Positions 7,302-59,095 of a stretch of 64,000 bases of DNA are shown here, in pieces. A program made the position numbers and the translations under genes. The notes beneath the pieces are model-generated. The model did no database searches. It had not been told where the DNA came from and saw only the letters and a program-made list of their open reading frames with translations. This DNA is from an uncultured Bacteroidales bacterium (lineage in GTDB: Bacteria; Bacteroidota; Bacteroidia; Bacteroidales; UBA4417), in NCBI GenBank assembly GCA_903879715.1, contig CAIRMR010000107.1:1-64000 (forward strand), read 5' to 3'. Positions within the stretch are counted from its first letter, which is position 1. Each line of letters starts with the position of its first letter.

Positions 7302-9050
7302 ATGGAAGTAAAAAAAACATTGTGGGCTTTTTTAATTCTTTTTGTTGGTGGCTTTGGTTGTACAACTCAAAAACAACAAGAAAGAGAGACTGATACCATT
7401 CAGCTTATCAATCCATCAGAGGTTCAGGTTCGGGGAGAACTCAATACCCGCTTAATGAAAAATTACGATCGGATGGAAGAAGAAATTTATCAGCCGGAAC
7501 ATGTTTTTATGACAGAGGAAGCCAGCAATTGGTGGCCTGGCGACAAGGAAGGAAGAACAATCCTGGCCCTGACCAAACTTGCCCAGGCAACCGGAAGAAC
7601 ACCCAAATACCTTGATGCCATTCTAAAGTTGTTTCCCGGCAAGGTTAATGAAAAGGGATATTTTGGCACTGTTTATCCTGATGGGGTTTTGGATGAGCAG
7701 CAGCTTTCGTCGCATGGCTGGGTGCTGAGAGGTCTTTGTGAATATTACCTCTGGAAAAAAGATCCGGCAGTGCTTGGATATATCAACAGGATAATCGACA
7801 ACCTGGTACTTCCAACCAAAGGCTATCACCAAAACTACCCGGTTGATCCTGCAGGGCGAAAACATGGCGGTCACGAAAGTGGCAACCGTATCAATGAAAA
7901 AGTTGGGAACTGGATTCTTTCGACAGATGTCGGTTGTGATTTCATTTTCATGGATGGTGTTGTTCAGGCTTACCAGGTTACGAAACGGGAAGAACTGAAA
8001 CCGCTGATTGATGAAATGATAGAGGTATTCAGAAAAACAGACCTTGTTCAGATCAAAGCCCAGACACATGCCTCGCTAACCGGTCTGCGGGCATTGCTTC
8101 GCTATTACCAGGTTACAGGCGACAGCACATTAGTCGGAACCGTTGAGAAAGACTTTGATCTTTACCGGAAATTCGCCCGTACCGAAAACTATGCAAACTA
8201 CAACTGGTTTGGTCGTCCCGAGTGGACAGAGCCTTGTGCGGTTGTTGATTCTTACATGTTGTCGTCGCAACTCTGGCAAATCACCGGGAAACCTGAATAT
8301 GCCGAAGACGCCCAACTGATTTATTACAATGCCCTCGGCTTCGGGCAACGTGCAAACGGAGGTTTTGGAACTGATAACTGCTCGGGCGCAAATTCCACAT
8401 TTTTACATGCCGATACCTACGAAGCATACTGGTGTTGCACTATGCGGGGCGGCGAAGGGCTGGCATCCATTGCCCAAAATTTGTTTTTCACAGGCAGCCG
8501 ATCCATTTATATTCCATCTTTCGAAAATGCTTCGGTGAACATTAAATTTGAAAACGACTCCATTTTATTGGATGAAACCACAGACTACCCTTTCGGAAAT
8601 GAAGTAAATTTCACCGTTAAAGAAACGAGTTTAAGCTTCGCTCCCGGAATTAAACTCCTTGCCCCTGAATGGATTCAGAATCCTGAAGTCTTTATCAATG
8701 ATAAAAAAATACAAACAGATTTAGAAAATGGATTTGTCTGTTTTACAAAAACACTTAGCAAGGGAGATCAGATCAGCTACCGTTTTGCGTTAAAATCAGG
8801 AGCAGAAAAGCTTGAAAATCCAAACAGCCTTGCCGGATATCACAAATATTTTTACGGCCCGCTCATACTCGGACACAGAGGAAAAGAAGAAATCCGGCTT
8901 TCGCAGCAAGCTGAATTTGAATTGAAAGGAAATAAAACATACGGCATTAAAAATGATACCCTGCAGTTTATCCCGGTTTATCATCTTTTAAATCCGGAAG
9001 TCAAAAAAGAAACGGGTTACCAGATTCAGGTGATTTTTAAAAATGAATAG
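7302..9050 (+). CDS. GH127-superfamily six-hairpin lipoprotein
   Basis: A 582-residue protein with a hydrophobic N-terminus ending 'VGGFGC', a plausible though non-canonical lipobox, so a lipoprotein is likely. It belongs to the DUF1680 superfamily but is divergent from its neighbour at 2363-4390. The same zinc-thiolate constellation is present: E310-P-C312 and C378-C379 ('YWCCTMRGG'). The spacing from the glutamate to the cysteine pair (68 residues) is close to the 70 in the neighbour, which argues that both use the same chemistry. The substrate is unknown; beta-L-arabinofuranoside is the obvious guess. It starts 6 bp after GH78 and is the last gene of this operon. Confidence 0.8.
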   Translation: MEVKKTLWAFLILFVGGFGCTTQKQQERETDTIQLINPSEVQVRGELNTRLMKNYDRMEEEIYQPEHVFMTEEASNWWPGDKEGRTILALTKLAQATGRTPKYLDAILKLFPGKVNEKGYFGTVYPDGVLDEQQLSSHGWVLRGLCEYYLWKKDPAVLGYINRIIDNLVLPTKGYHQNYPVDPAGRKHGGHESGNRINEKVGNWILSTDVGCDFIFMDGVVQAYQVTKREELKPLIDEMIEVFRKTDLVQIKAQTHASLTGLRALLRYYQVTGDSTLVGTVEKDFDLYRKFARTENYANYNWFGRPEWTEPCAVVDSYMLSSQLWQITGKPEYAEDAQLIYYNALGFGQRANGGFGTDNCSGANSTFLHADTYEAYWCCTMRGGEGLASIAQNLFFTGSRSIYIPSFENASVNIKFENDSILLDETTDYPFGNEVNFTVKETSLSFAPGIKLLAPEWIQNPEVFINDKKIQTDLENGFVCFTKTLSKGDQISYRFALKSGAEKLENPNSLAGYHKYFYGPLILGHRGKEEIRLSQQAEFELKGNKTYGIKNDTLQFIPVYHLLNPEVKKETGYQIQVIFKNE

Positions 9051-9140: not shown

Positions 9141-9215
9141 CTGATATTGTGTCATTTTGTGTAAAATAAGAATCATTTCATATATTGATTCAATTTAATT
9201 ATGAAGTATCTTTAC
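9141..9215 (+). promoter_or_regulatory. Promoter/operator module, upstream copy
   Basis: This 75-bp segment matches 15326-15400 at about 68 of 75 positions with no gaps. It contains an inverted repeat GAATCA-N10-TGATTC (9170-9191) and then TATCTTTAC (9207-9215), close to the Bacteroidota -7 element TAnnTTTG, with a TTG about 19 bp upstream inside the right arm. The first T9SS gene starts 57 bp downstream. It is probably a functional promoter copied from the rhaA leader or the reverse. Confidence 0.6.
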
Positions 9216-9271
9216 CAGTACCAGCCTAGTTAAATAGCCCGGTAAGATATTAATAGTTTAAATACAAAACT

Positions 9272-10249
9272 ATGAGATCAAGAAAACGCGATAAGACCGA
9301 TTACAAGAAATTTATAGCCCTAATCTTCTGCTTCGTGCTCATACTGAATTTTGGCAGTACTAGTGCCCAACAATATCAACTATTTCCTGATTCAAATGCC
9401 ACCTGGCTTGTGCAGGAACATAGCAGTGAATATACCCTCTACCATAATTGGTTCCTAAGTGAACAAGCCAATGATACTGTAATAAGTGGAAAGAAATACA
9501 CAAAAGTATTTGAAAAGCCTTATGGAACAGATTATGTATCGTATTCCGGAGCATTTCGAAATGACCATTCCGGCAAATCTTATTTCATTTCTCCCTTTGG
9601 GCAGGAAGAATTTATCTTACAGGATTTCACAAAAAAAGCAGGTGATACCGTTTTCGACGTTGCAGTTCATTATTATGATTTCTTAGGTGCTTATGATTTT
9701 CTGGTGGACTCAGTAGTTTTTTATCCTTGTGGCCCCTATACCTTAAAATTCATTGCTTTACATTCTATTGAATTTATCCCGCTTATGTATGGCACATATT
9801 TAAATTGGATCGAAAAAATTGGAAGCACTTCAGGTGGGATATTTAATCAACCTGCGATGGGGTTGAATGTATATAATCTTAAATGTTACAATTCTACCGA
9901 TACTATATTTTACAAATCAAACATTTTATGGCTTCCTGAATCTCTTGTCTACTACCATGGTAACTGTAACGAATTTTTGGCAGTAGACAAACCAATAAGA
10001 GATGAGTTGTTTTCAATCTATCCTAATCCTTTTGCAGACCAGTTATATATAAGAAGTAATCAAAATATCGAAAATTTAAGACTTGATGTGTACGATCTCA
10101 TGGGTAGGTTAATGCATTGCGAAATGGTGCCAAATTATTTAAACACCTATACTACCAGGACCTTTTCCAATCTCAAACCGGGTAATTATTTCCTCCTGAT
10201 TACAACCAAACACAAACAGCCATGGAAACAAATCATTACAAAAATGTAA
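9272..10249 (+). CDS. Secreted protein with T9SS C-terminal sorting domain
   Basis: A 325-residue protein. A charged N-terminus and hydrophobic stretch end in 'STSAQ', a clear signal peptide. The middle (residues 35-240) is a beta-rich region with no family I recognise. The last 80 residues are a type A sorting domain: 'SIYPNPFADQLYIRS', then 'LDVYDLMGRLM', then 'LKPGNYFLLI', ending in basic residues. It should cross the outer membrane through the type IX system and stay on the surface or be released. The next cargo gene starts 32 bp later, so the two are probably co-transcribed. Both lie between two copies of a 75-bp promoter-like module and interrupt an otherwise metabolic cluster. Confidence 0.85.
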   Translation: MRSRKRDKTDYKKFIALIFCFVLILNFGSTSAQQYQLFPDSNATWLVQEHSSEYTLYHNWFLSEQANDTVISGKKYTKVFEKPYGTDYVSYSGAFRNDHSGKSYFISPFGQEEFILQDFTKKAGDTVFDVAVHYYDFLGAYDFLVDSVVFYPCGPYTLKFIALHSIEFIPLMYGTYLNWIEKIGSTSGGIFNQPAMGLNVYNLKCYNSTDTIFYKSNILWLPESLVYYHGNCNEFLAVDKPIRDELFSIYPNPFADQLYIRSNQNIENLRLDVYDLMGRLMHCEMVPNYLNTYTTRTFSNLKPGNYFLLITTKHKQPWKQIITKM

Positions 10250-10281
10250 ACGAAATTAAAATCCGTTAGATTTACACTACT

Positions 10282-13200
10282 TTGCTGAGAGCGGGGATGA
10301 TTCTGTGCGGGATCTTTATTTCAACTGTGAAATTAAATGCCCAATTGGATAAACACATTTCCAATTTAAACTCCGGGTCAACATTTCAGGATATTTTTGT
10401 ACCAGAAAAGCAGTACCTCGATAATTTAAAATTTACACTTGATAGTACCACTTATTATTCCGGAGGAGCTGAATACAAGACTTATAAAAAGTTTCAGAAT
10501 TACTGGGAGCCTCGATTGTATCCTGATAAAAAATTTGAAACGTATCTGCTAGCCCAACAAGCTTTTTTTGAGAGTACTTCTCAGAATTATTCAATAGCAA
10601 GTTCTGATGGTTGGAAAGAAATTGGGCCCAAGAACAGTACGGTTGGGGTAGGTCCTGTTGAGTTTATTTCATTTTTTGATAATGGTACTTCTGCATCAAC
10701 ACAATACATGTTAACTGGAGCTACACAGTCTGGACTGTTCTATTCAAAAGATTTTGGCGAAACATGGAATCCAACTGGTACCGATACACAATGGGAAACA
10801 TCAGGTTGCAGTTGGGCTGTTTTTCATCCAACAAATCATCAAATTTGGTGTGCTTCTTCAAGTGGTAATGGAGGAGCGTGTGCCAGCACTTTTATGGGAA
10901 GAGTAGGTGGTGTTTATCTCACAAATGACGAAGGTGCAACCTGGAGTAAAAAGGCTGATTACCTTGACTTTGGACAGTGGACAATTATTCGTAAACTTAT
11001 TTGGGATCCATCAGATACAAGCAGATTGTATGTAGCAACATCGTTTGGCCTATACAGAACTGATGACTTGAATAGCAGTAATCCTACCTGGACAAAAATT
11101 CTGGCTTATGATATTAATGATATAGAAATGAAGCCAGGTAGTAATAATACAATTTATTCTGCTTGTAGTGAAAAAATCAATGATTATTTATACAGATGGA
11201 GAATAATGAAATCAATTGATAATGGTACAACATGGGCGGAAATTTATACTTCCGACAATACTTCTTTAACTATTGAAGTTTCTAAGGCAAAGCCGGATTA
11301 TTTGTATATGTGTAAGCTAGTTGGGTATACTGCTTCATTATATTATTACTTTGATAACACATGGGCAACCATTGTAAATAATTACAACATGCCTTTTGGA
11401 GGAGGTCATGCTTTTGGTATAGAACAAGTTCAGAACGGAGAAAGTTTGATTATTTCTTATGGTACTGGTTTAAGAAAGTTATCAATTTATGGTGCTGTAT
11501 TAGCCAGTCAAGCTCCAGTTCATGTTGATTTAGAGGATGTTGTTTATCATCCTTACAACGCCAATGAAGTTTGGATTTGCACACACGGTGGCCCAGAGAA
11601 ATCGGTTGCTGGTGGTAGTTCTTGGGTACCAAAATACAATGGCGCTGGGACTGCCATTACTGAAAAAATGGCTACCTCATACACAAATCCAGAATTTGTT
11701 ATGCTTGGCCTTTATCATGATGGAACTCAAATAACAAGAACACCATATAATGCAAACTGGAACCCTAGTTGGCAAATGGTTTTATGGGGTGATGGGCAAC
11801 AACCCCTAATAGATAATAAAGATCCTAAATATATGTGGGCTTCATATCAAGGACAGGATCCACCAAGTGCTACATCTGTGAGTTATACTGATAATTTTTT
11901 CCTAAACACCATAACATCTATCCCAATATACACATACTGGTTAACACAAATGGTTCTGAATAAAGAAAACTCTAATTTTCTTTATGTAAACAGTAAACCC
12001 ATTGTTTCAGAATCAATGGAAGAAGTCAAACGATTTACATCAAGAGGAGCAGCTACCGGTAATTTTATTTCTAATTTTAAAAGCATGCTTGATCCATCAA
12101 TAACGATGATTTTAACAATTGGAATGACAACTCCATATTATTCAAATGATGAACTCATTGTTTGGGTGGATGCTAGAGGTGGTTCAACCGATAATGGTTT
12201 TCATGTATTTAGGACTAGAGATGCTACTTCAACCAATCCTACTTGGATTGAATTAAGTATTCCACGATCACAAGGTTGGATAGAAGATATTGAATTTAAT
12301 ACTTATAATACCAACATAGTTTATTTGTGTTATGGCAGTTCTTCAGATGAAAGTCTTTGGCCCCTTGCTAAACAATTTATCTATAAAATTGATTACACAA
12401 ATCCATCAAGTCCAATATTTACAGACTTGACACAGAATTTGCCCTACTCATTTTCAGATCCCTATTGCTTAGAATATGAACGTGGTAGTGATGGAGCTTT
12501 ATATTTAGCCACTGATTTTGGAGTATTTACAACCAATAATCATTTATTGGCTACAACCAATAGTTGGCAACTGTTAGGTACTGGATTACCGCATTGTCAA
12601 CAATCACGAGGGATTGAAATCAATTACCCTAAAAACCTACTGCGGGTTGGCACAGGAGGCCGAGGCGCATGGGAAATTCCGCTCCCGTGTAGTTTTGAGG
12701 CTACAAAGATTTTTATAAATCAAAATACCACCTGGAATACGGTAGAAAGGTTAGACCGTGGTGTTGTTGTTAAAAGTGGATATACATTAACCATTAATCA
12801 GAATGCCAGAATATCATTTCCAACAGGTACTGGTATAGTTATTGAACCAGGAGCAAAATTGATAGTCAATGGCGCAACATTAACAAATGCGTGCACCAAC
12901 GCCCAATGGCAAGGCATCGAAGTATGGGGCACCACCACCCAGCACCAATACCAAAACCCCCTTTACGGCACATGCTACCAGGGCACCGTGGAGCTTAAGA
13001 ATGGCGCAGTAATCGAAAATGCCTACAATGGCATTACCAACTGGAAACCTGATGATTGGGATAAGATAGGAGGAATAATTATTGCCACCAATGCAACTTT
13101 CCGCAACAACCGCCGTAGTGTTGAATTTATAAGTTACAGAAATTTCGACCCAATTACAGGCCTTGAAAAGGACAATTTAAGCTATTTCAGCAATTGTTCT

Positions 13201-15222
13201 TTTGAAGTAAATGACGCATATCCTGCAGGTGCTTCGCTATTTGCTCAAATGGTTTCCTTATGGAAGGTAAAAGGGATAACGTTTGCGGGATGCGATTTCG
13301 TGAATAACCGTACAAATAATTTTACAGGAATAGGTATTGGTTCACTTGATGCGGGGTATAAAGTTCTGGCTTTATCCGGCACCACGGTAGATAAGTCATT
13401 TTTCCAAAACTTTGCTTATGGTATTCAGGCTTCAAATTCCCAAACTGCAAACAGCATTTATGTGGATAACGCGAAATTTACAAGTAATGGATATGGTATT
13501 GATTTAACTGCAATAAACGGAGCCGTAATAGTAAACAGCCTTTTCGAAATCGGGACTTCACCAAACTGCCCGAACCAGGGTTTTGGTATTGCAACTAATG
13601 CCTGCTCCGGCTATGCCATTGAGCAAAATACATTTACAGGTGGTACGGCAGTTCCGGGAACCTCTTTTACCGGAATTTCAATTACCAATTCGGGCCAAAC
13701 CTATAACGAGGTTTATAAAAACACCTTTCAGAATGTTACTTATGGCAACAGTTCCAATCTCCAGAATGCCCTTTCCTATCCGCTTTACGGGCTTACTTAT
13801 TTATGCAACACCAATACCGGCAATAAATATGACTTTTATGTTACAGCCAACCCTACATCCATGATTTCGCCCTACCAGCGCAGTGGCTCATCCATTGCTA
13901 CCGGAAATACGTTTTCAAGCAATGCCATAAGTAATTTTTACAACGGCGGCCGCACTCCGTTGTTCTATTACCACGCAGCAGGCCAGGCCCCATTGTCGTA
14001 CTCTGGAATACAATTAATGACAGCCGGTAGTAATACCTGTCCTTCGCATTACGGAGGCAGCAGTAAAAGCATGGTTACCCTTCCCCAATCAGAATTGGAT
14101 GCCAAAGAAATAGAGTTTGCCGAAGCTTTTGCAGCCAGCAATAACGTAAATACATTATACGAATCCCTGAAAGACGGCGGAAGTACCACAAGCACTGTCG
14201 AAGATATCGAAAACAGTATGCCTTCCGATATGTGGGAACTTCGTTCCAAGCTTTTAGGTGTTTCGCCACATCTATCGCAGGAAGCGTTGCGCTCAGCCGC
14301 CCTTCAAACCAATGTTTTGCCACAATCAGTATTGTTCGAGATATTAGCCGCAAATCCGGATGAGATGCGTGATGAAAATTTTCTTTCGTTCCTTCAAACC
14401 AAGGAAAATCCATTGCCGGAATATATGATTGATTTACTCAGGCAGATAGCCGGTAACAAATCCTATAAAACTATGCTGCTGGAGAAAATGAATGTTTTCG
14501 AGAGCCAAAAATCATTAGCAGCTTCCGATATATTACGCAGCAAACTAACTGATAGTGTGGTTGACCAGGCTTCAATAATAAACTGGCTCGACAACAAAGG
14601 CGATCTGACAAGTCATTACCAGATTGTTGACGCTTATTTACAAAGTGGCAATACTATATCTGCACAATCCATGCTTAAACTCATACCAACTTTGCACAAG
14701 TTCTCAGAGACTGATTCCGCCGAATACCAAAAATTCAGTGAACTGAAAGCTCTGCAGATCGATCTTTCGGAGAATGGCCGGAGCCTGGCAAAGTGCGATA
14801 GTACTGAAAAAGCGAAACTGATAGCTATAGCTGACTTTGGTCATGGTATAGCCTCGGCTCAGGCGCAGGGTATGTTAGGTTTCTGGTATGGGATTCCTTA
14901 CTGCAATTGCTTGAATTACGATGATAAACTGAAACATACCGCCGTAAAAACAAGCAAATTAGCTTCCTTACCTTCTAATATAAAAATCAGTGCAAATCCA
15001 AATCCGGCAACCACATGGATAACCTTTGAGTACGAGCTTCCTGATGGTATTAACAGCGTTAAACTGACAGTATCGGATGCACAAGGTCGCATAGTTGACA
15101 AACTGACTTTAACAGGAAAGCAAGGCCAGAAACTGCTTGATACAAGAAACTATTCTCAGGGAATGTACTTTTATAAGTCAGGCAAAAACGAAAGAGTTGT
15201 GGGAAAGTTTATTGTTAAATAA
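10282..15222 (+). CDS. Large T9SS cargo: BNR-type propeller plus beta-helix
   Basis: A 1646-residue surface protein. A TTG start at 10282 gives a better signal peptide (one arginine, then 'MILCGIFISTVKLNAQ'); ATG at 10297 is the alternative. Residues 110-800 resemble a sortilin/BNR-type propeller, with Asp-box repeats 'SKDFGETW', 'TNDEGATW' and 'SIDNGTTW'. From about residue 810 to 1250 short repeats such as 'GYGIDLTAINGAVIVNSLFE' suggest a right-handed parallel beta-helix. A helical region follows (1280-1540), and the protein ends in a sorting domain ('KISANPNPATTWITFEYELP', 'GMYFYKSG'). Base use changes along the gene: the propeller half is AT-rich, while from about 12.7-12.9 kb it is visibly richer in GC. 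The function is unknown; adhesion or glycan binding is plausible. Confidence 0.85.
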   Translation: MLRAGMILCGIFISTVKLNAQLDKHISNLNSGSTFQDIFVPEKQYLDNLKFTLDSTTYYSGGAEYKTYKKFQNYWEPRLYPDKKFETYLLAQQAFFESTSQNYSIASSDGWKEIGPKNSTVGVGPVEFISFFDNGTSASTQYMLTGATQSGLFYSKDFGETWNPTGTDTQWETSGCSWAVFHPTNHQIWCASSSGNGGACASTFMGRVGGVYLTNDEGATWSKKADYLDFGQWTIIRKLIWDPSDTSRLYVATSFGLYRTDDLNSSNPTWTKILAYDINDIEMKPGSNNTIYSACSEKINDYLYRWRIMKSIDNGTTWAEIYTSDNTSLTIEVSKAKPDYLYMCKLVGYTASLYYYFDNTWATIVNNYNMPFGGGHAFGIEQVQNGESLIISYGTGLRKLSIYGAVLASQAPVHVDLEDVVYHPYNANEVWICTHGGPEKSVAGGSSWVPKYNGAGTAITEKMATSYTNPEFVMLGLYHDGTQITRTPYNANWNPSWQMVLWGDGQQPLIDNKDPKYMWASYQGQDPPSATSVSYTDNFFLNTITSIPIYTYWLTQMVLNKENSNFLYVNSKPIVSESMEEVKRFTSRGAATGNFISNFKSMLDPSITMILTIGMTTPYYSNDELIVWVDARGGSTDNGFHVFRTRDATSTNPTWIELSIPRSQGWIEDIEFNTYNTNIVYLCYGSSSDESLWPLAKQFIYKIDYTNPSSPIFTDLTQNLPYSFSDPYCLEYERGSDGALYLATDFGVFTTNNHLLATTNSWQLLGTGLPHCQQSRGIEINYPKNLLRVGTGGRGAWEIPLPCSFEATKIFINQNTTWNTVERLDRGVVVKSGYTLTINQNARISFPTGTGIVIEPGAKLIVNGATLTNACTNAQWQGIEVWGTTTQHQYQNPLYGTCYQGTVELKNGAVIENAYNGITNWKPDDWDKIGGIIIATNATFRNNRRSVEFISYRNFDPITGLEKDNLSYFSNCSFEVNDAYPAGASLFAQMVSLWKVKGITFAGCDFVNNRTNNFTGIGIGSLDAGYKVLALSGTTVDKSFFQNFAYGIQASNSQTANSIYVDNAKFTSNGYGIDLTAINGAVIVNSLFEIGTSPNCPNQGFGIATNACSGYAIEQNTFTGGTAVPGTSFTGISITNSGQTYNEVYKNTFQNVTYGNSSNLQNALSYPLYGLTYLCNTNTGNKYDFYVTANPTSMISPYQRSGSSIATGNTFSSNAISNFYNGGRTPLFYYHAAGQAPLSYSGIQLMTAGSNTCPSHYGGSSKSMVTLPQSELDAKEIEFAEAFAASNNVNTLYESLKDGGSTTSTVEDIENSMPSDMWELRSKLLGVSPHLSQEALRSAALQTNVLPQSVLFEILAANPDEMRDENFLSFLQTKENPLPEYMIDLLRQIAGNKSYKTMLLEKMNVFESQKSLAASDILRSKLTDSVVDQASIINWLDNKGDLTSHYQIVDAYLQSGNTISAQSMLKLIPTLHKFSETDSAEYQKFSELKALQIDLSENGRSLAKCDSTEKAKLIAIADFGHGIASAQAQGMLGFWYGIPYCNCLNYDDKLKHTAVKTSKLASLPSNIKISANPNPATTWITFEYELPDGINSVKLTVSDAQGRIVDKLTLTGKQGQKLLDTRNYSQGMYFYKSGKNERVVGKFIVK

Positions 15223-15325
15223 CACAAAAATTCCCTTATACATTCTACGTTCGCAGTAGTTTGAAATTCTCATTCTTATCAAAAATGTACTGGTGGTTAG
15301 ATACTTTCCAAACGAAAGGTTGAAC

Positions 15326-15400
15326 CTGATATTGTGTCATTTTGTGCAAAATAAGAATCATTTCACATATTGATTCATTTTTATAACAAAGTATCTTTAC
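15326..15400 (+). promoter_or_regulatory. Probable rhaA promoter/operator, downstream copy
   Basis: The second copy of the 75-bp module. The inverted repeat GAATCA-N10-TGATTC is at 15355-15376 and the -7-like TATCTTTAC at 15392-15400, so the right arm overlaps the expected -33 region. Both arms and the -7 are identical in the two copies although spacer bases differ. rhaA begins 180 bp downstream, giving a long leader. The cognate regulator is not identifiable in the window. Confidence 0.6.
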
Positions 15401-15579
15401 GGTTGAAAATTTCGTGAAATGACCGTCGAAAAAGGTATCAGCGGGATCATATTTTATAGTGGAATAATACTGAAAGAGGAAGATTCTAAAAAATAAATAA
15501 TTGTATTAAACGATCGTAATAAACTGAATATAAAATAGATAACTAAATTGTTTTACCAATAAATTAACTGACAACTAAA

Positions 15580-16842
15580 ATGAAAGACGCACAAATTACC
15601 CAGGCATTTGAATATGCAAAAGCACGTTATGCTGACTTTGGCATTGATGTAGAAACTGCTATAAAACAATTGGATAAACTTCCAATTTCCTTACATTGCT
15701 GGCAGGCCGATGATGTTACAGGTTTTGAAAACGGCGATGGTGAACTCACCGGAGGAATTCAGGCAACCGGAAATTATCCCGGAAAGGCAAGAACAGTGGC
15801 CGAACTTCGCGCCGATATCGACAAAGCCATGTCACTTATCCCTGGCGATCATCGTGTAAATTTACACGCTTTTTACGGTGATTTTGGTGGCGAAAGCGTG
15901 GATCGCAACCAGATTGAACCTAAGCATTTCCAGAGCTGGATTGATTGGGCTAAAGCAAAAAACTATAAACTTGACTTCAACTGTACCTGCTTCTCACACG
16001 AAAAGTCGTCGGATGGACTTACATTGTCGCACCCCGATCCCGCCATCCGCGAATTCTGGATCGACCACGTAATTCGTTGCCGTAAAATTGCCGAAGAAAT
16101 GGGCCGTCAGCTGGAATCAAAATGTATGCACAACATCTGGATTCCTGATTCCTCGAAAGATTTAACCGTTGATCGTCTGCAATACCGTCAGAACCTGAAA
16201 GATTCGCTGGATAAAATCTTCGAATACAAAACCAACGATGTTTACATGAAGGACTGTATCGAAAGTAAATTGTTCGGTATCGGTGGCGAGAGTTATACGG
16301 TTGGTTCACACGAATTTTATATGGGCTATGGAGTCCGCAATAATGTAGTCGTAACACTCGACTCGGGTCACTTCCACCCAACTGAAGTTATTTCCGATAA
16401 AATTTCATCGTTGTTGCTTTTCCTGCCCGAAGTAATGCTGCACGTTAGCCGTGGCGTACGTTGGGACAGCGACCATGTGGTTATTCTGGGCGACGAACTG
16501 CAGGCCATTGCACAGGAAATTGTCCGTTCCAACGCAGTTGACAAAGTACACATCGGCCTGGATTATTTTGATGCTTCCATCAACCGGATCGGTGCTTATG
16601 TTATAGGTGTACGGGCAACTCAGAAAGCCCTGGTACAGGCGTTACTTGAGCCTATTGCGCAACTCCGTGCTTACGAAGCAAAAGGTCAGAATTTTGAGCG
16701 CCTGGCATTACTCGAAGAAGCTAAATCGTTGCCATGGGCAGCAGTATTCGATTATTACTGCATGAAAAAAGGCGTAATCGCCGGCGAAGCTTTCATTGCT
16801 GATATTCAGCAGTACGAAAAGGACGTTACCAGCAAACGTTAA
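15580..16842 (+). CDS. rhaA: L-rhamnose isomerase
   Basis: A 420-residue cytoplasmic TIM-barrel isomerase, close to the usual RhaA length of about 419. It converts L-rhamnose to L-rhamnulose. Diagnostic segments are 'SLHCWQADDVTGFE' near the start and the metal-binding stretches 'NLHAFYGDFGGE', 'VVTLDSGHFHPTE' and 'VRWDSDHVVIL'. It is the first gene of a rha run continuing with rhaT and rhaM. Its probable promoter lies at 15326-15400. The kinase and aldolase steps are encoded about 10-13 kb away on the other strand. Confidence 0.97.
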   Translation: MKDAQITQAFEYAKARYADFGIDVETAIKQLDKLPISLHCWQADDVTGFENGDGELTGGIQATGNYPGKARTVAELRADIDKAMSLIPGDHRVNLHAFYGDFGGESVDRNQIEPKHFQSWIDWAKAKNYKLDFNCTCFSHEKSSDGLTLSHPDPAIREFWIDHVIRCRKIAEEMGRQLESKCMHNIWIPDSSKDLTVDRLQYRQNLKDSLDKIFEYKTNDVYMKDCIESKLFGIGGESYTVGSHEFYMGYGVRNNVVVTLDSGHFHPTEVISDKISSLLLFLPEVMLHVSRGVRWDSDHVVILGDELQAIAQEIVRSNAVDKVHIGLDYFDASINRIGAYVIGVRATQKALVQALLEPIAQLRAYEAKGQNFERLALLEEAKSLPWAAVFDYYCMKKGVIAGEAFIADIQQYEKDVTSKR

Positions 16843-16957: not shown

Positions 16958-17989
16958 ATGTACACAATACTCGGACTTTTAATTATTGCCATCGGAAGCT
17001 TTGGCCAATCGAGTTCTTATGTTCCTATTAATAAGGTTAAAGACTGGGCATGGGAGAGTTTCTGGTTGGTTCAGGGCCTGTTTGCCTGGATAGTATTCCC
17101 TTACCTGGGTGCACTGCTGGCTGTACCGGAAGGACATTCATTGATGGAAATCATTTCATCGGGTAACGGAGCCGCGTTACCTGCCATGTTTTATGGAGTA
17201 CTCTGGGGCATTGGCGGCCTTACGTTTGGATTAAGTATGCGTTACCTGGGTGTGGCTTTAGGGCAGTCGATTGCCTTAGGAACATGTTCCGCATTTGGAA
17301 CTTTAATACCGGCTATTATGCTTGGCACTGATTTGTTTTCAGGTAAAGGCCTTGTTTTACTCGTTGGTGTAAGTATTGCAATTGCCGGAATCGCGGTGAT
17401 TGGCTATGCCGGAAGTTTACGTTCGAAAAATATGACCGAAGAGCAGAAGAAAGCCGCAGTCAAAGATTTCGCTCTCGGAAAAGGTTTACTGGTTGCCTTG
17501 CTGGCAGGTGTGATGAGCGCATGTTTCAGCCTTGGGCTCGAAGCTGCTGAACCGATAAAAGTTGCCGCTATAGGTTTAGGCTCGAATCCTTTGTTTGCCG
17601 GATTACCCGCCATTTTACTGATAACAACCGGAGGATTCATTACCAATGCCATTTATTGCTTGTACCAGAATGCAAAAAATAAAACAGGCAAGGACTATTT
17701 CAGTGTGCCAAAAAATGTGTTGATTAACAATGTTTTATTTTGTGCTTTGGCCGGTATCCTCTGGTACTCGCAGTTTTTTGGATTAACGTTGGGAAAAAGT
17801 TTTTTAACCGAAGGCAGCGTAATGATGGCTTTCTCCTGGAGCATACTTATGTCGCTGAATGTAACTTTCAGCAATGTGTGGGGAATACTGTTAAAAGAAT
17901 GGAAAGGTGCCGGATCAAAGACTATAGCAGTTCTGGCTTTGGGAATGATCATTCTTATAGCCTCGCTGATTATCCCTAACCTGATGTAA
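16958..17989 (+). CDS. rhaT: L-rhamnose/proton symporter RhaT
   Basis: A 343-residue inner-membrane protein with about ten hydrophobic segments, the size of E. coli RhaT (344 residues). Typical features are the N-terminal 'SSSYVPINKVKDWAWESFW', the glycine-rich second half of the first repeat ('YGVLWGIGGLTFGLSMRYLG'), and 'GVMSACFSLGLEAAEPI'. It imports L-rhamnose with protons. It follows rhaA after 115 bp containing a hairpin and precedes rhaM by 45 bp, so the three probably share a transcript. Confidence 0.96.
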   Translation: MYTILGLLIIAIGSFGQSSSYVPINKVKDWAWESFWLVQGLFAWIVFPYLGALLAVPEGHSLMEIISSGNGAALPAMFYGVLWGIGGLTFGLSMRYLGVALGQSIALGTCSAFGTLIPAIMLGTDLFSGKGLVLLVGVSIAIAGIAVIGYAGSLRSKNMTEEQKKAAVKDFALGKGLLVALLAGVMSACFSLGLEAAEPIKVAAIGLGSNPLFAGLPAILLITTGGFITNAIYCLYQNAKNKTGKDYFSVPKNVLINNVLFCALAGILWYSQFFGLTLGKSFLTEGSVMMAFSWSILMSLNVTFSNVWGILLKEWKGAGSKTIAVLALGMIILIASLIIPNLM

Positions 17990-18034: not shown

Positions 18035-18349
18035 ATGGAACGACTAGCTTTTAAAATGTACCTCAACGAAGGCCAGAAAGAAGAATATAAAAAGAGACAT
18101 AATGCATTATGGCCCGAATTACATAAACTCCTGAAAGATGCAGGCGTTAGCGAATACTCTATTTTTCTGGACGAAGAAACAAGTCTCCTGTTCGCCTTTC
18201 AGAAAGTTAGCGGTGAAGGCGGTTCCCAGGATCTGGGACAAACAGAAATTGTTAAGAAATGGTGGAAATTTATGGCTGATATAATGAAAACCAATCCTGA
18301 CAATTCTCCTGTTTCAGTTGCCCTGGAAGAAGTGTTTTATATGGAATAA
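18035..18349 (+). CDS. rhaM: L-rhamnose mutarotase
   Basis: A 104-residue ferredoxin-like protein of exactly the usual RhaM length. It interconverts the alpha and beta anomers of L-rhamnose, supplying the form the isomerase uses. The family pattern is clear: 'AFKMYLNEGQKEEYKKRHN', the 'LWPEL' helix, 'SIFLDEE' and the C-terminal 'KKWWKFMADIM' with 'LEEVFYM'. It is the third gene of the rhaA-rhaT-rhaM run. Confidence 0.95.
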   Translation: MERLAFKMYLNEGQKEEYKKRHNALWPELHKLLKDAGVSEYSIFLDEETSLLFAFQKVSGEGGSQDLGQTEIVKKWWKFMADIMKTNPDNSPVSVALEEVFYME

Positions 18350-29183: not shown

Positions 29184-30554
29184 TCAGGGGATTAAACGGA
29201 ACGGCTCAATTTTCTTCAGCCCCAGATCCAATTTGGTTTCGGCACCTGTAAATGCCTTATTCCACATAATCATTGCAGCACCTAAGGCAGTAGCATTGTC
29301 AATCTCGGATGTAAATACAGACTTCCAGGGTAGTAAAGCGGCCAGCAAACGGACAAAGATTTCGTTGCGGGCAAATCCACCGGTGATATAAACCGAACGC
29401 GTGGAATCCTTTTTAGGAATAACAAGTTCCAATGAATCCAGGCACTGGTAAGTTAAATCGATAATAAGCTGGTGATATGCTTCTTCATATGAAACAAAAG
29501 CTGAAAGATCCACCGATGAATCAACATAGTCTGCCGGAATACCGTTAATGAAAAAAGCCCGTTTGCGAAGCAGTTTGAGCATCAACGATTCGTCTGGTTT
29601 AACACTTTTAAAATAATCGGCTTTAACTCCGAAATAAGAAGCAATGTGGTCTGAATTCACATCATGAATATGACCCATAAAAAGGCGGGCAGATTTTACC
29701 TGTTTTTGCCTGGTACTCATATAACAGAGGCCATCTTTTTTTAGTTGCTCAGCAGTTAATGGTTCATCGTTAAACGGATTCATGAAAATGCACCAGGTCC
29801 CTGTGGAAATCAGGATGAAAGGATCGGCACTGCCTATTAAATATGGAACCAGGGATGATGAGCTATCGTGGATACCGATTCCGACCTGTATTTTTTGTCC
29901 GTTAATAACTGTTTCAGCGGCATCTTCATTCGAAACCGGAGCCGGCAATTGTATGTTTTCATTTGCAAGCCATGAATGATAGCAGTGCTTATCGAAATCC
30001 CACATTGCTGTATGACAGCCGATTGATGTGTATTCAGAACAAATACGCTTTGAAAAAATATAACTCAGGTATTGAGGGAAATGTAAAACGTGATTAACAT
30101 TGCTGAAAAGTGTTGGCATGTGCTTCTTTAACCAAAGAATCTGTAAACCGGAATTCAGCATGCCCAATGCCGGAGAAGCTGTTCGGCGCGAGAACTCATC
30201 AACACCGCCATATTTTTCATAAAGACCTGCAAGAACTTCATCAGGCATAGGTTTAAGGTAGTTGTAAATTGGAGTTAGTCGTTGCCCTTTGAAATCCAGG
30301 TAAGCTAAGGATGCTCCATAGGTTGCAAAATTTATTGCTTTCAGGTTAAAGTCTGATCTTGCCTGAAATGCTGACACAGATTGAATCATCCATTCTTCAA
30401 CTTTAGCGATATCGTCGCACGAAACCCCATCTTCATCGGTTATTTCTGCAAATTTTTCCTCTGTCTGAAATACGAGTTTTAATCCGGAATCGAATAGAAG
30501 AATCTTCTTATTGGTTTTACCTATATCGAAAATGGCAATAACATCTTTTTTCAT
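29184..30554 (-). CDS. rhaB: FGGY-family kinase, probable L-rhamnulokinase
   Basis: A 456-residue FGGY carbohydrate kinase. 'AIFDIGKTNKKILLFD' is the first phosphate-binding motif, 'GIHDSSSSLVPYL' contains the catalytic-type aspartate, 'ISTGTWCIFMNPF' is the adenosine-side motif and 'VYITGGFARNEIFVRLLAAL' the C-terminal one. No other sugar kinase is in the window, and the pathway needs L-rhamnulose to L-rhamnulose-1-P between rhaA and the aldolase, so that role is the best inference. It is shorter than E. coli RhaB (489). It lies between the PHP protein and a zinc dehydrogenase on the same strand. Confidence 0.85.
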   Translation of the reverse strand: MKKDVIAIFDIGKTNKKILLFDSGLKLVFQTEEKFAEITDEDGVSCDDIAKVEEWMIQSVSAFQARSDFNLKAINFATYGASLAYLDFKGQRLTPIYNYLKPMPDEVLAGLYEKYGGVDEFSRRTASPALGMLNSGLQILWLKKHMPTLFSNVNHVLHFPQYLSYIFSKRICSEYTSIGCHTAMWDFDKHCYHSWLANENIQLPAPVSNEDAAETVINGQKIQVGIGIHDSSSSLVPYLIGSADPFILISTGTWCIFMNPFNDEPLTAEQLKKDGLCYMSTRQKQVKSARLFMGHIHDVNSDHIASYFGVKADYFKSVKPDESLMLKLLRKRAFFINGIPADYVDSSVDLSAFVSYEEAYHQLIIDLTYQCLDSLELVIPKKDSTRSVYITGGFARNEIFVRLLAALLPWKSVFTSEIDNATALGAAMIMWNKAFTGAETKLDLGLKKIEPFRLIP

Positions 30555-47514: not shown

Positions 47515-48798
47515 TTATTCTTCGCGTTTTGGATTAGTAACTGTCTCAAAATTGAAATATGCCGTTTGTTTTAACATTTCAGCATTCCTATTTGGACGAA
47601 TCTTTATATACTTGAAAAATGATTCTTCAGTGCTATGACCTGTTACTAACATTATCTGAGGTACATTAACTCCATCCAACATCATGTTTGTTGCAAATGA
47701 TCTTCTCGCGGTATGAGTGGAAACTAATTGAAATTTCGGATATTTATATGGCGTATGAAACCCACCATTAGAATGGGTGATAGTAACTTCATCAGTCAAC
47801 CCTGCTTTCTTAGCTATAATTTTTAGATAATCATTAAATTTCTGATTACTGAATATCTTCGGTAGTAGAGGGTAATATTTTGTTAAGATCGATTTTGTAA
47901 TATTGCCTATAGGAATACACACTTGTTTTTTTGTTTTAATAGTTGTTGTTTTTATGATACCATCTGTTCCAATATTTTCAGGTTTAAGATTCTTGATGTC
48001 AGAGAATCTTAAACCTGTAAATGCTCCGAGTATGAAACCATCCCGTGTTTGTTCAAGTGTCTTATTTTCGGAAAGATCGAGGTTGAAAATCTTAAGAAGC
48101 TCTTCTTTTGTCAGGTAAATACTATCAACTTCTTCTTGAAGTACTTTAAAGTCCTTATGACTGTATATAGTATTCTGGTGAATCTTTTGAGAATAAGATT
48201 GCCTTAGAAAAACTTTTAGATTTTTAATATGTCCTCCTATAGTATTGATGCGTAGATTTTTACCTTCCAAGTAAGTTACAAAGGAGTTATAAAAAGCCAT
48301 ATCAATATCATTAAAGTATAATTTAGTTCTTTTCGATCCTGAAAACGCCTTTAAAATATTAATTGTAGTTCCATAGTGTCTTTTGGTTTTATAATTTTTT
48401 CCACAAGTCTCTTTGTAATTTACAGCGAACCCGATTAACGTAATATTATTTACCTTTTTTTTGTGATTTTCTTGGTGCTTATAATTCTTAAGTGTTTCTG
48501 GGGTGATTTCTAAATTTTCTTTACCCATTTCATCAAATTTGTTGACAATATCAATTTCAACTTGATTAAGTCTCCGGTTGATACCATCCCAATCTGGGAC
48601 AGAGGCTTTAATAGTTCTTTGAGTTTTGCTATCCCAACTTTTAATTGGGACTTCTTCACCAGTCGAAACTTGATAAAATCTATACTTCCCATCTTCTTTA
48701 TAACCAAAATTGAATATTGCTACAATTGAACCCCAGCCATTCTTTTTATTTTTCAAATAAAACCTAACTTTGTTTGCTTTACTATAATTCTTTTCCAT
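47515..48798 (-). CDS. Tyrosine recombinase/integrase
   Basis: A 427-residue site-specific recombinase. An N-terminal Arm-like domain (1-110) is followed by a SAM-like core-binding domain (118-220) and the catalytic domain. The catalytic set is complete: R264 in 'FTGLRFSD', H362-T-A-R365, H388 in 'TGHSTEE' and nucleophile Y397. It should cut and rejoin DNA at an attachment site for an integrated element. It transcribes leftward with the DUF3853 gene. I found no matching direct repeats by eye at the presumed ends (44.3-44.6 kb and 48.8-49.1 kb), so the element limits are not defined. Confidence 0.93.
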   Translation of the reverse strand: MEKNYSKANKVRFYLKNKKNGWGSIVAIFNFGYKEDGKYRFYQVSTGEEVPIKSWDSKTQRTIKASVPDWDGINRRLNQVEIDIVNKFDEMGKENLEITPETLKNYKHQENHKKKVNNITLIGFAVNYKETCGKNYKTKRHYGTTINILKAFSGSKRTKLYFNDIDMAFYNSFVTYLEGKNLRINTIGGHIKNLKVFLRQSYSQKIHQNTIYSHKDFKVLQEEVDSIYLTKEELLKIFNLDLSENKTLEQTRDGFILGAFTGLRFSDIKNLKPENIGTDGIIKTTTIKTKKQVCIPIGNITKSILTKYYPLLPKIFSNQKFNDYLKIIAKKAGLTDEVTITHSNGGFHTPYKYPKFQLVSTHTARRSFATNMMLDGVNVPQIMLVTGHSTEESFFKYIKIRPNRNAEMLKQTAYFNFETVTNPKREE

Positions 48799-58167: not shown

Positions 58168-59095
58168 GAGACTGCCTGAATTTTATTTTTTAATTCTATT
58201 AAGCATAAGTTTTATCGTGGCTAATTGGATCATTGCTTGACTTGTTTCGGTTTGAAACTCAAAATCTTTGCTTAATCTGCGATAACTTTCAAACCAAACG
58301 AATGTTCTTTCAACAATCCAACGTTCTGGAAGCACTTCAAATTTAGTAGCAGTATCAGATCGAAGCACCACTTCAACTATCCATCCATAGATTTTACGAG
58401 TGTTCTCGATCAGTTCACCTCTGTATCCTCCATCGGCAATTATCTTCACTAGTAGAGCAAACCTTCCCCTGAGTTCTGCTATGACCATCGGAGCCGATTT
58501 ACTATCATGCTCATTGGCAGCATGAACAACTACCGCCAACAACAGTCCCATAGTATCAACAATAATATGTCGTTTTCTTCCTTTGGTCTTTTTGCCTCCA
58601 TCAATCCTTTGGCTTAATCCTCCTATTCTAGTCGTTTTAACGCTTTGGCTATCAATGATTCCAACGCTCGGCGATTCGTTCTTTCCAGCTTTCCTTCGCG
58701 CCTTATCTCTGGTTAATTCATGTATTAATTCGATGGCACCATCATTCTTCCATTTGGTAAAATAGTAGTAAACAAGTTTCCATGATGGAAAATGTATTGG
58801 CAGCATGCGCCATTGGCAGCCTGTTTTAAGTAAATAGAGGAGTGCATCAAAAATTTCTCTTAAAGTATGTTTTCGCTTTCGTTTGTCTTTCAGAATGTCT
58901 AATATTGCCTTCCATTGACTATCGGTGAAGTTGCTTGAATATGTTTTCATGTTTCTTTATGTGTTTGATTTCCATAAAGTTATGAAATATTGTTAATTTA
59001 AACAACTGATAGTCATTACTTTAAATCATTTTTACTGCATTTTTATTAACATTTTTTACCACTGTTAAACGAAGTTGCTGTTTTTAGACAGTCTC
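58168..59095 (-). mobile_element. Complete IS5-family element
   Basis: A 928-bp element. The left end begins GAGACTGCCTGAA (58168) and the right end, read inward on the - strand from 59095, begins GAGACTGTCTAAA, so 11 of 13 terminal bases match. Both ends are flanked by TAA (58165-58167 and 59096-59098), a 3-bp target duplication typical of IS5-type elements. One intact transposase gene fills most of it. It appears complete and possibly active. Confidence 0.88.
58183..58950 (-). CDS. IS5-family DDE transposase
   Basis: A 255-residue intact transposase. The N-terminal DUF4096-type region ('FTDSQWKAILDILKD', 'LLKTGCQWRMLPIHFPSW') precedes the DDE core: first Asp in 'VGIIDSQSVKTT', second in 'IIADGGYRGE' and the Glu in 'WIVERTFVWFESYRRLSKDF'. 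It ends 15 bp from the left inverted repeat and starts 145 bp from the right one, as expected for one-gene IS5-type elements. No frameshift or stop is seen. Confidence 0.95.
   Translation of the reverse strand: MKTYSSNFTDSQWKAILDILKDKRKRKHTLREIFDALLYLLKTGCQWRMLPIHFPSWKLVYYYFTKWKNDGAIELIHELTRDKARRKAGKNESPSVGIIDSQSVKTTRIGGLSQRIDGGKKTKGRKRHIIVDTMGLLLAVVVHAANEHDSKSAPMVIAELRGRFALLVKIIADGGYRGELIENTRKIYGWIVEVVLRSDTATKFEVLPERWIVERTFVWFESYRRLSKDFEFQTETSQAMIQLATIKLMLNRIKK

Follow-up and report, generated by a model that had tools for sequence, protein, structure and literature searches.

In Flavobacteria, proteins secreted by the type IX secretion system (T9SS) can be encoded and co-regulated with polysaccharide-utilisation genes. 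Dimers of AraC-family regulators commonly bind direct repeats with a 21-bp period. The rhamnose genes of Escherichia coli are activated by the AraC-family proteins RhaS and RhaR, the sites of which are inverted repeats of 17-bp half-sites (PMC3870299). In Bacteroides thetaiotaomicron the rhamnose catabolic genes are controlled by RhaR (BT3768), an AraC-family regulator encoded with the rha genes (PMC3870299, PMC3878776) and not an orthologue of E. coli RhaR (PMC3870299). The motifs of Bacteroides RhaR have been described as direct repeats with a period of 21 bp (PMC3870299), and a single target operon is described for the regulator (PMC3878776). The promoters read by the Bacteroidota sigma factor sigma-ABfr have a TAnnTTTG box at -7 and TTTG near -33 (PMC7366714). 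Here, we analyse a 64,000-bp stretch of the genome of an uncultured Bacteroidales bacterium (assembly GCA_903879715.1, contig CAIRMR010000107.1, positions 1 to 64,000; hereafter the window), in which a 75-bp module lies both before the L-rhamnose isomerase gene rhaA and before a pair of genes for T9SS cargo proteins. We consider it likely, from sequence comparison, that this clade's RhaR is an AraC-family activator responsive to rhamnose, with the module as its operator and core promoter, and that the T9SS pair belongs to its regulon.

Compared with the described systems, the locus appears to behave like a Bacteroidales RhaR regulon in its testable features except for the operator sequence, which could not be detected at rha loci of other Bacteroidales. 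As in B. thetaiotaomicron, an AraC-family regulator encoded with the rha genes would control rhamnose catabolism, and as in E. coli it would do so as an activator, but through direct repeats 21 bp apart rather than inverted ones. In contrast to the single operon of Bacteroides RhaR, there are seven sites and three RhaR paralogues, and two of the predicted targets, the T9SS pair and a corrinoid methyltransferase cluster, lie outside core catabolism. The placing of T9SS cargo genes with carbohydrate-degradation genes recalls the Flavobacteria, although here the inferred control is by a monosaccharide regulator and the cargo has no clearly recognised catalytic domain. The regulator type is already known; its target genes are new members.

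The two copies of the module, at 9141-9215 and 15326-15400, lie where a first-pass annotation of the window had placed them, and its estimate of about 68 matching positions was recovered by ungapped recomputation (68 of 75 bases, 91%). They make up one 75-nt repeat family in a repeat search of the window, match each other at E = 2e-23 in BLAST of the bacterium's own genome, and share GAATCA-N10-TGATTC and TATCTTTAC exactly, as that annotation had noted; beyond both module edges their similarity drops sharply. A 34-nt sub-pattern of the module has two matches in the window and none in 100 shuffles, whereas the palindrome alone, at up to two mismatches, has 7 matches in the window against 4.6 expected and is not rarer than chance. 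Significance belongs only to the whole module, not to the palindrome by itself. The annotation's outline, a rhamnose operator/promoter module with T9SS genes downstream, stood, whereas its palindromic core, split operon and recent copying were not supported. It missed both the 21-bp direct repeat within the module and the copies elsewhere in the genome.

Across the 6.07 Mb of the genome, BLAST with the module found four strong copies, namely the two in the window, C67:18877-18949 and C83:9151-9222, together with weaker ones at C189:87310 and C84:13975. A pattern made from the left half found seven sites, the seventh being C133:15676, and its reversed control none. Both searches are independent of a sequence model built from ten sites, which gives seven matches at 62-73 bits, the next scoring 19.7; the model includes the sites found, and leave-one-out matrix scores are still 54-65. 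A weak match at C162:5009, which overlaps another gene's start, was set aside as background. All seven strong sites are intergenic and point towards a gene. Five are at core rhamnose genes or the regulator: the copy before the window rhaA, the C67 site before a second rhaA-rhaT locus (its RhaA is 96% identical to that of the window), and the C189, C84 and C133 sites, each in the region that separates an AraC-family gene from a divergent rhaB. The other two precede the T9SS pair and the C83 cluster. The operator thus stands before two of three rhaA genes and all three rhaB/rhaR pairs; the third rhaA (C189:35032) is operon-internal with no site in front. This distribution bears out the proposed role as a rhamnose-regulon operator/promoter. 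It also makes a generic dispersed repeat, mobile-element end or structured RNA extremely improbable: several near-identical copies do exist in the genome, but strong sites number only seven, the score gap is wide, no copies lie inside genes or at many unrelated loci, there is no Rfam match, and the leaders to the right of the module differ except among the rhaA copies.

The ten sites, from this genome and two others of the genus (G009 and G015), align without internal gaps and fall into two types, type A at rhaA, the T9SS pair and the C83 cluster, and type B at rhaB/rhaR. Both share TTGTGTCATTWTGTG.AAA (one site with one further change), CATT, ATTG and a TAnnTTT -7 box, whose distance is constant to within one base across the types. 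CATT recurs at exactly 21 bp in all ten sites (nine have it at positions 10 and 31, and one at 11 and 32), the period described for Bacteroides RhaR motifs. The palindrome, in contrast, is exact in 5/5 type A copies and absent from 5/5 type B sites, which retain ATTG and the distal half-site as well as the 21-bp repeat. Being confined to type A, it cannot be what RhaR requires at rhaB. GAATCA-N10-TGATTC had been put forward as the conserved core; it was rejected in this role, given its absence from every rhaB/rhaR site and its frequency in the window, and the 21-bp direct repeat takes its place. Exactness of the palindrome in type A would suit a different regulator, for example one that binds this palindrome, sited at rhamnose genes by coincidence. 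We regard this as very unlikely, since the type B sites keep the other elements without it and site and RhaR co-occur across the genus. The promoter boxes agree with the sigma-ABfr consensus in part: the rhaB sites are exact at -7 (TACTTTTG) and the type A copies one base off (TATCTTTA); around -33, ATTG stands where the consensus has TTTG. The predicted elements and the cargo genes in the window are as follows.

9144 to 9192, plus strand: upstream RhaR-type operator (predicted), type A, with distal half-site ATATTGTGTCATTTTGTG and CATT again 21 bp downstream; it ends in TATTGATTCA, which includes GAATCA-N10-TGATTC.
9204 to 9215, plus strand: predicted promoter of the T9SS pair, AAGTATCTTTAC with a TAnnTTT-type -7 box, the same in 5/5 type A copies.
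9272 to 10249, plus strand: T9SS cargo gene 1, 325 amino acids, C-terminal type A sorting domain (PF18962, Por_Secre_tail, 42.9 bits; TIGR04183, 36.4).
10282 to 15222, plus strand: T9SS cargo gene 2, 1646 amino acids, C-terminal type A sorting domain (PF18962, 35.2 bits; TIGR04183, 31.3).
15329 to 15377, plus strand: downstream RhaR-type operator (predicted), type A, of rhaA, 49/49 identical to the C67 and G009 rhaA operators.
15389 to 15400, plus strand: predicted -7 region of the rhaA promoter, AAGTATCTTTAC.

A separate repeat was seen in G017, a genome of another family, where locus L039 carries, on the minus strand, TGTCATTTTGT repeated directly and almost perfectly at 21 bp (5074) and a weaker version at 7895. 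They precede two large, related genes for secreted proteins, have TAnnTTTG-like boxes near, and perhaps belong to another AraC-type regulator with a similar half-site.

The candidate regulator is AraC-type, with ligand-binding and helix-turn-helix domains (PF02311, PF12833, PF00165). Its gene has three copies in the genome (all found at the E-value used), each divergent from rhaB, and in all three, as in G015 and G009, a site lies between rhaR and rhaB. With the five type B sites as its only input, and hence no window sequence, a matrix ranks the window modules first and second in the 64 kb (15329, 38.3; 9144, 31.1), with the next site at 8.5 and a reversed control at 7.8. This is the strongest single link of the modules to RhaR. 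Three of the genus's 16 genomes (this one, G009 and G015) have RhaR, and the same three have the site, an overlap with a chance of 1/560; a match in G012 with three mismatches lacks the repeat and was not counted as a real site. Most sampled Bacteroidales loci have a RhaR homologue, at 31-43% identity, close to rhaA.

That the upstream copy precedes two T9SS cargo genes was confirmed by the sorting domains, found in both proteins and with TIGR04183 above cut-off in each. The genome also encodes the SprA translocon (TIGR04189, 2585 bits). Gene 2 follows gene 1 by 32 bp and is probably co-transcribed with it. Domain searches recognised no clear catalytic domain in either protein, gene 2 giving a weak BNR/Asp-box match (PF02012), and comparison of protein 2 with solved structures gave no match. 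Between the 9141 and 15326 copies, 5 of the 11 bases of the spacer separating operator and -7 region differ, compared with 2 of the 61 operator and -7 bases (Fisher p = 0.0006), and changes between other type A pairs have the same bias. A non-functional copy should decay evenly; given this concentration of changes in the spacer, the upstream copy looks constrained and functional. All it can serve is the T9SS pair, which starts at 9272. Predicted co-regulation of the pair by rhamnose is well supported, and its proteins are probably made when the bacterium grows on rhamnose.

From architecture, distribution, co-occurrence and constraint, all of them read from sequence, we infer binding by RhaR, induction by rhamnose and membership of the T9SS pair in the regulon. 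In the mechanism we propose, RhaR with L-rhamnose would bind two direct half-sites at a 21-bp interval, which adjoin or overlap the -33 region, and would recruit polymerase to the TAnnTTT-type -7 box 30-odd bp downstream. The upstream copy would place the T9SS pair (9272-15222) in the rhamnose regulon, such that two secreted or surface-anchored proteins would be made together with RhaA, RhaT and RhaM.

Several observations weigh against this. The half-sites of the 21-bp repeat resemble each other modestly beyond CATT, so the repeat is imperfect; the genome is a draft of 223 contigs; and the window rhaB (29184-30554) is preceded by neither rhaR nor a site. Scanned with the matrix, 80 Bacteroidales rhaA loci (1.3 Mb) gave no match above threshold. 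Outside the genus, the ten nearest rhaA loci, of 79-86% identity and in several cases labelled Paludibacter, have no core site upstream of rhaA. With no site at other Bacteroidales rha loci, there is no sequence tie to the Bacteroides RhaR motif. However, AraC-type rhamnose motifs are described as unique to each lineage (PMC3870299), so a missing shared operator sequence does not exclude membership in the Bacteroidales RhaR regulon, and the absence outside the genus is in line with lineage-specific operators. Finally, no terminator was seen at either junction, between glycosidase operon and T9SS pair or between the pair and rhaA. The pair could therefore also be read from the upstream glycosidase operon, and read-through may add a second input. 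Taken further, the upstream module would be a decaying by-product of duplication or recombination and the pair would be transcribed with that operon, as the missing terminator would allow and as G009 might suggest, in which the T9SS genes begin 17 bp after the GH127 gene with no module between. We hold this to be improbable: a free copy of such age, whose flanks are without similarity on both sides, should have decayed evenly, in contrast to the pattern of changes in the upstream copy.

The proposed control of the T9SS pair by RhaR leaves the origin of the arrangement to be considered, for which the surrounding genes are needed.

7302 to 9050, plus strand: GH127-like gene, last of the upstream glycosidase/sulfatase operon.
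15401 to 15579, plus strand: rhaA leader, conserved in three module-bearing rhaA loci and different behind the upstream module.
15580 to 16842, plus strand: rhaA, L-rhamnose isomerase (PF06134, 655 bits; TIGR01748 above cut-off).
16958 to 17989, plus strand: rhaT, L-rhamnose-proton symporter (PF06379).
18035 to 18349, plus strand: rhaM, L-rhamnose mutarotase (PF05336).

The downstream copy lies directly before the rhaA leader and rhaA, and was rightly taken for the rhaA promoter. The idea that the pair had been inserted into the rhamnose operon needs dividing: the pair is absent from the orthologous G009 locus, but it lies between the glycosidase/sulfatase operon and the rhaA promoter and does not interrupt the rha operon, because rhaA has its own promoter behind the pair. 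In G009 the GH127-like orthologue is followed by two different T9SS genes (L037 2072-6430), a single module and rhaA-rhaT-rhaM. One of these genes has GH43 and CBM6 domains, and the second has a weak sorting domain. Which T9SS genes occupy the slot thus varies between species, and the slot seems prone to T9SS gene exchange.

Recent copying of the upstream module from the rhaA promoter at such an insertion is disfavoured. The 15326 module is 96% identical to the G009 rhaA module, 94% to that of C67 and 91% to the 9141 copy, and the flanks of 9141 resemble those of 15326 on neither side. Left flanks have no clear similarity in any pair, including the orthologous rhaA modules of the window and G009. 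Leader similarity has z-scores of 16-27 among rhaA leaders, and of -0.2 between the 9141 and 15326 leaders. The identities and flanks point to a module that is old or was imported with the pair, and probably not to a fresh copy of its neighbour. Import with the pair, or recombination of the pair at the module (Campbell-type, giving module-cargo-module), is a tentative account of origin that we find possible but rather doubtful; it is compatible with the RhaR function proposed above. It would explain the direct orientation of the flanking copies and the single module with a different pair in the sister genome G009. A related group also exists far from rha genes in G235, of another family (L197 2347-10100), encoding a 1684-amino-acid relative of protein 2, a 536-amino-acid T9SS-like protein and a 330-amino-acid relative of protein 1. 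However, 75 bp is short for homologous recombination, and the left flank of 9141 is not recognisable as that of any rhaA module. The G+C content at third codon positions is 0.33 in the pair compared with 0.36-0.47 in flanking genes, which might suggest foreign origin, but as proof it is weakened by values of 0.31 in another T9SS gene of the window and 0.35 in an ADH gene.

Several rhamnulokinase-type (rhaB) loci exist in the genome; L027, L028 and L052 keep a divergent rhaR and the operator, and the window copy is without both. The right half of the window has possible marks of mobile DNA, a tyrosine-recombinase-like gene (47515-48798) and an IS-type (insertion sequence) transposase gene (58183-58950), both judged from translations only.

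The remaining strong site, C83:9151-9222, precedes genes for a homocysteine-type methyltransferase, an MtgC-like corrinoid protein, an MtaA/CmuA-like URO-D-family protein and a MetH-activation-like protein. This cluster (L026 4765-14170) and its paralogue on C9 (L200 1137-10033) also encode a DUF6580 membrane protein, an AraA/FucI-like isomerase and GH106-type rhamnosidases, the C9 assignment to GH106 being by translation similarity to the C83 gene and not by family search. The rhamnose-type module is found only at the C83 cluster, not at its C9 paralogue. As a complete MetH is encoded elsewhere (C96), methionine synthesis alone is unlikely to account for the cluster. A speculative and fairly unlikely proposal is that it carries out B12-dependent demethylation of O-methylated rhamnose-type sugars within rhamnose catabolism, induced together with the T9SS surface proteins. 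Among the papers listed in literature searches, none offered a cobalamin-dependent system for demethylating methylated sugars, including O-methyl-rhamnose.

For this uncultured Bacteroidales clade, the module provides a concrete candidate for the operator of the rhamnose regulator. Besides catabolism, the regulon would take in a B12 methyl-transfer cluster and secreted surface proteins. If this is true, growth on rhamnose-containing glycans would give a physiological context to gene products of unknown function, and the slot in front of rhaA would be a test case for the swapping of T9SS cargo genes and their capture by local sugar control.

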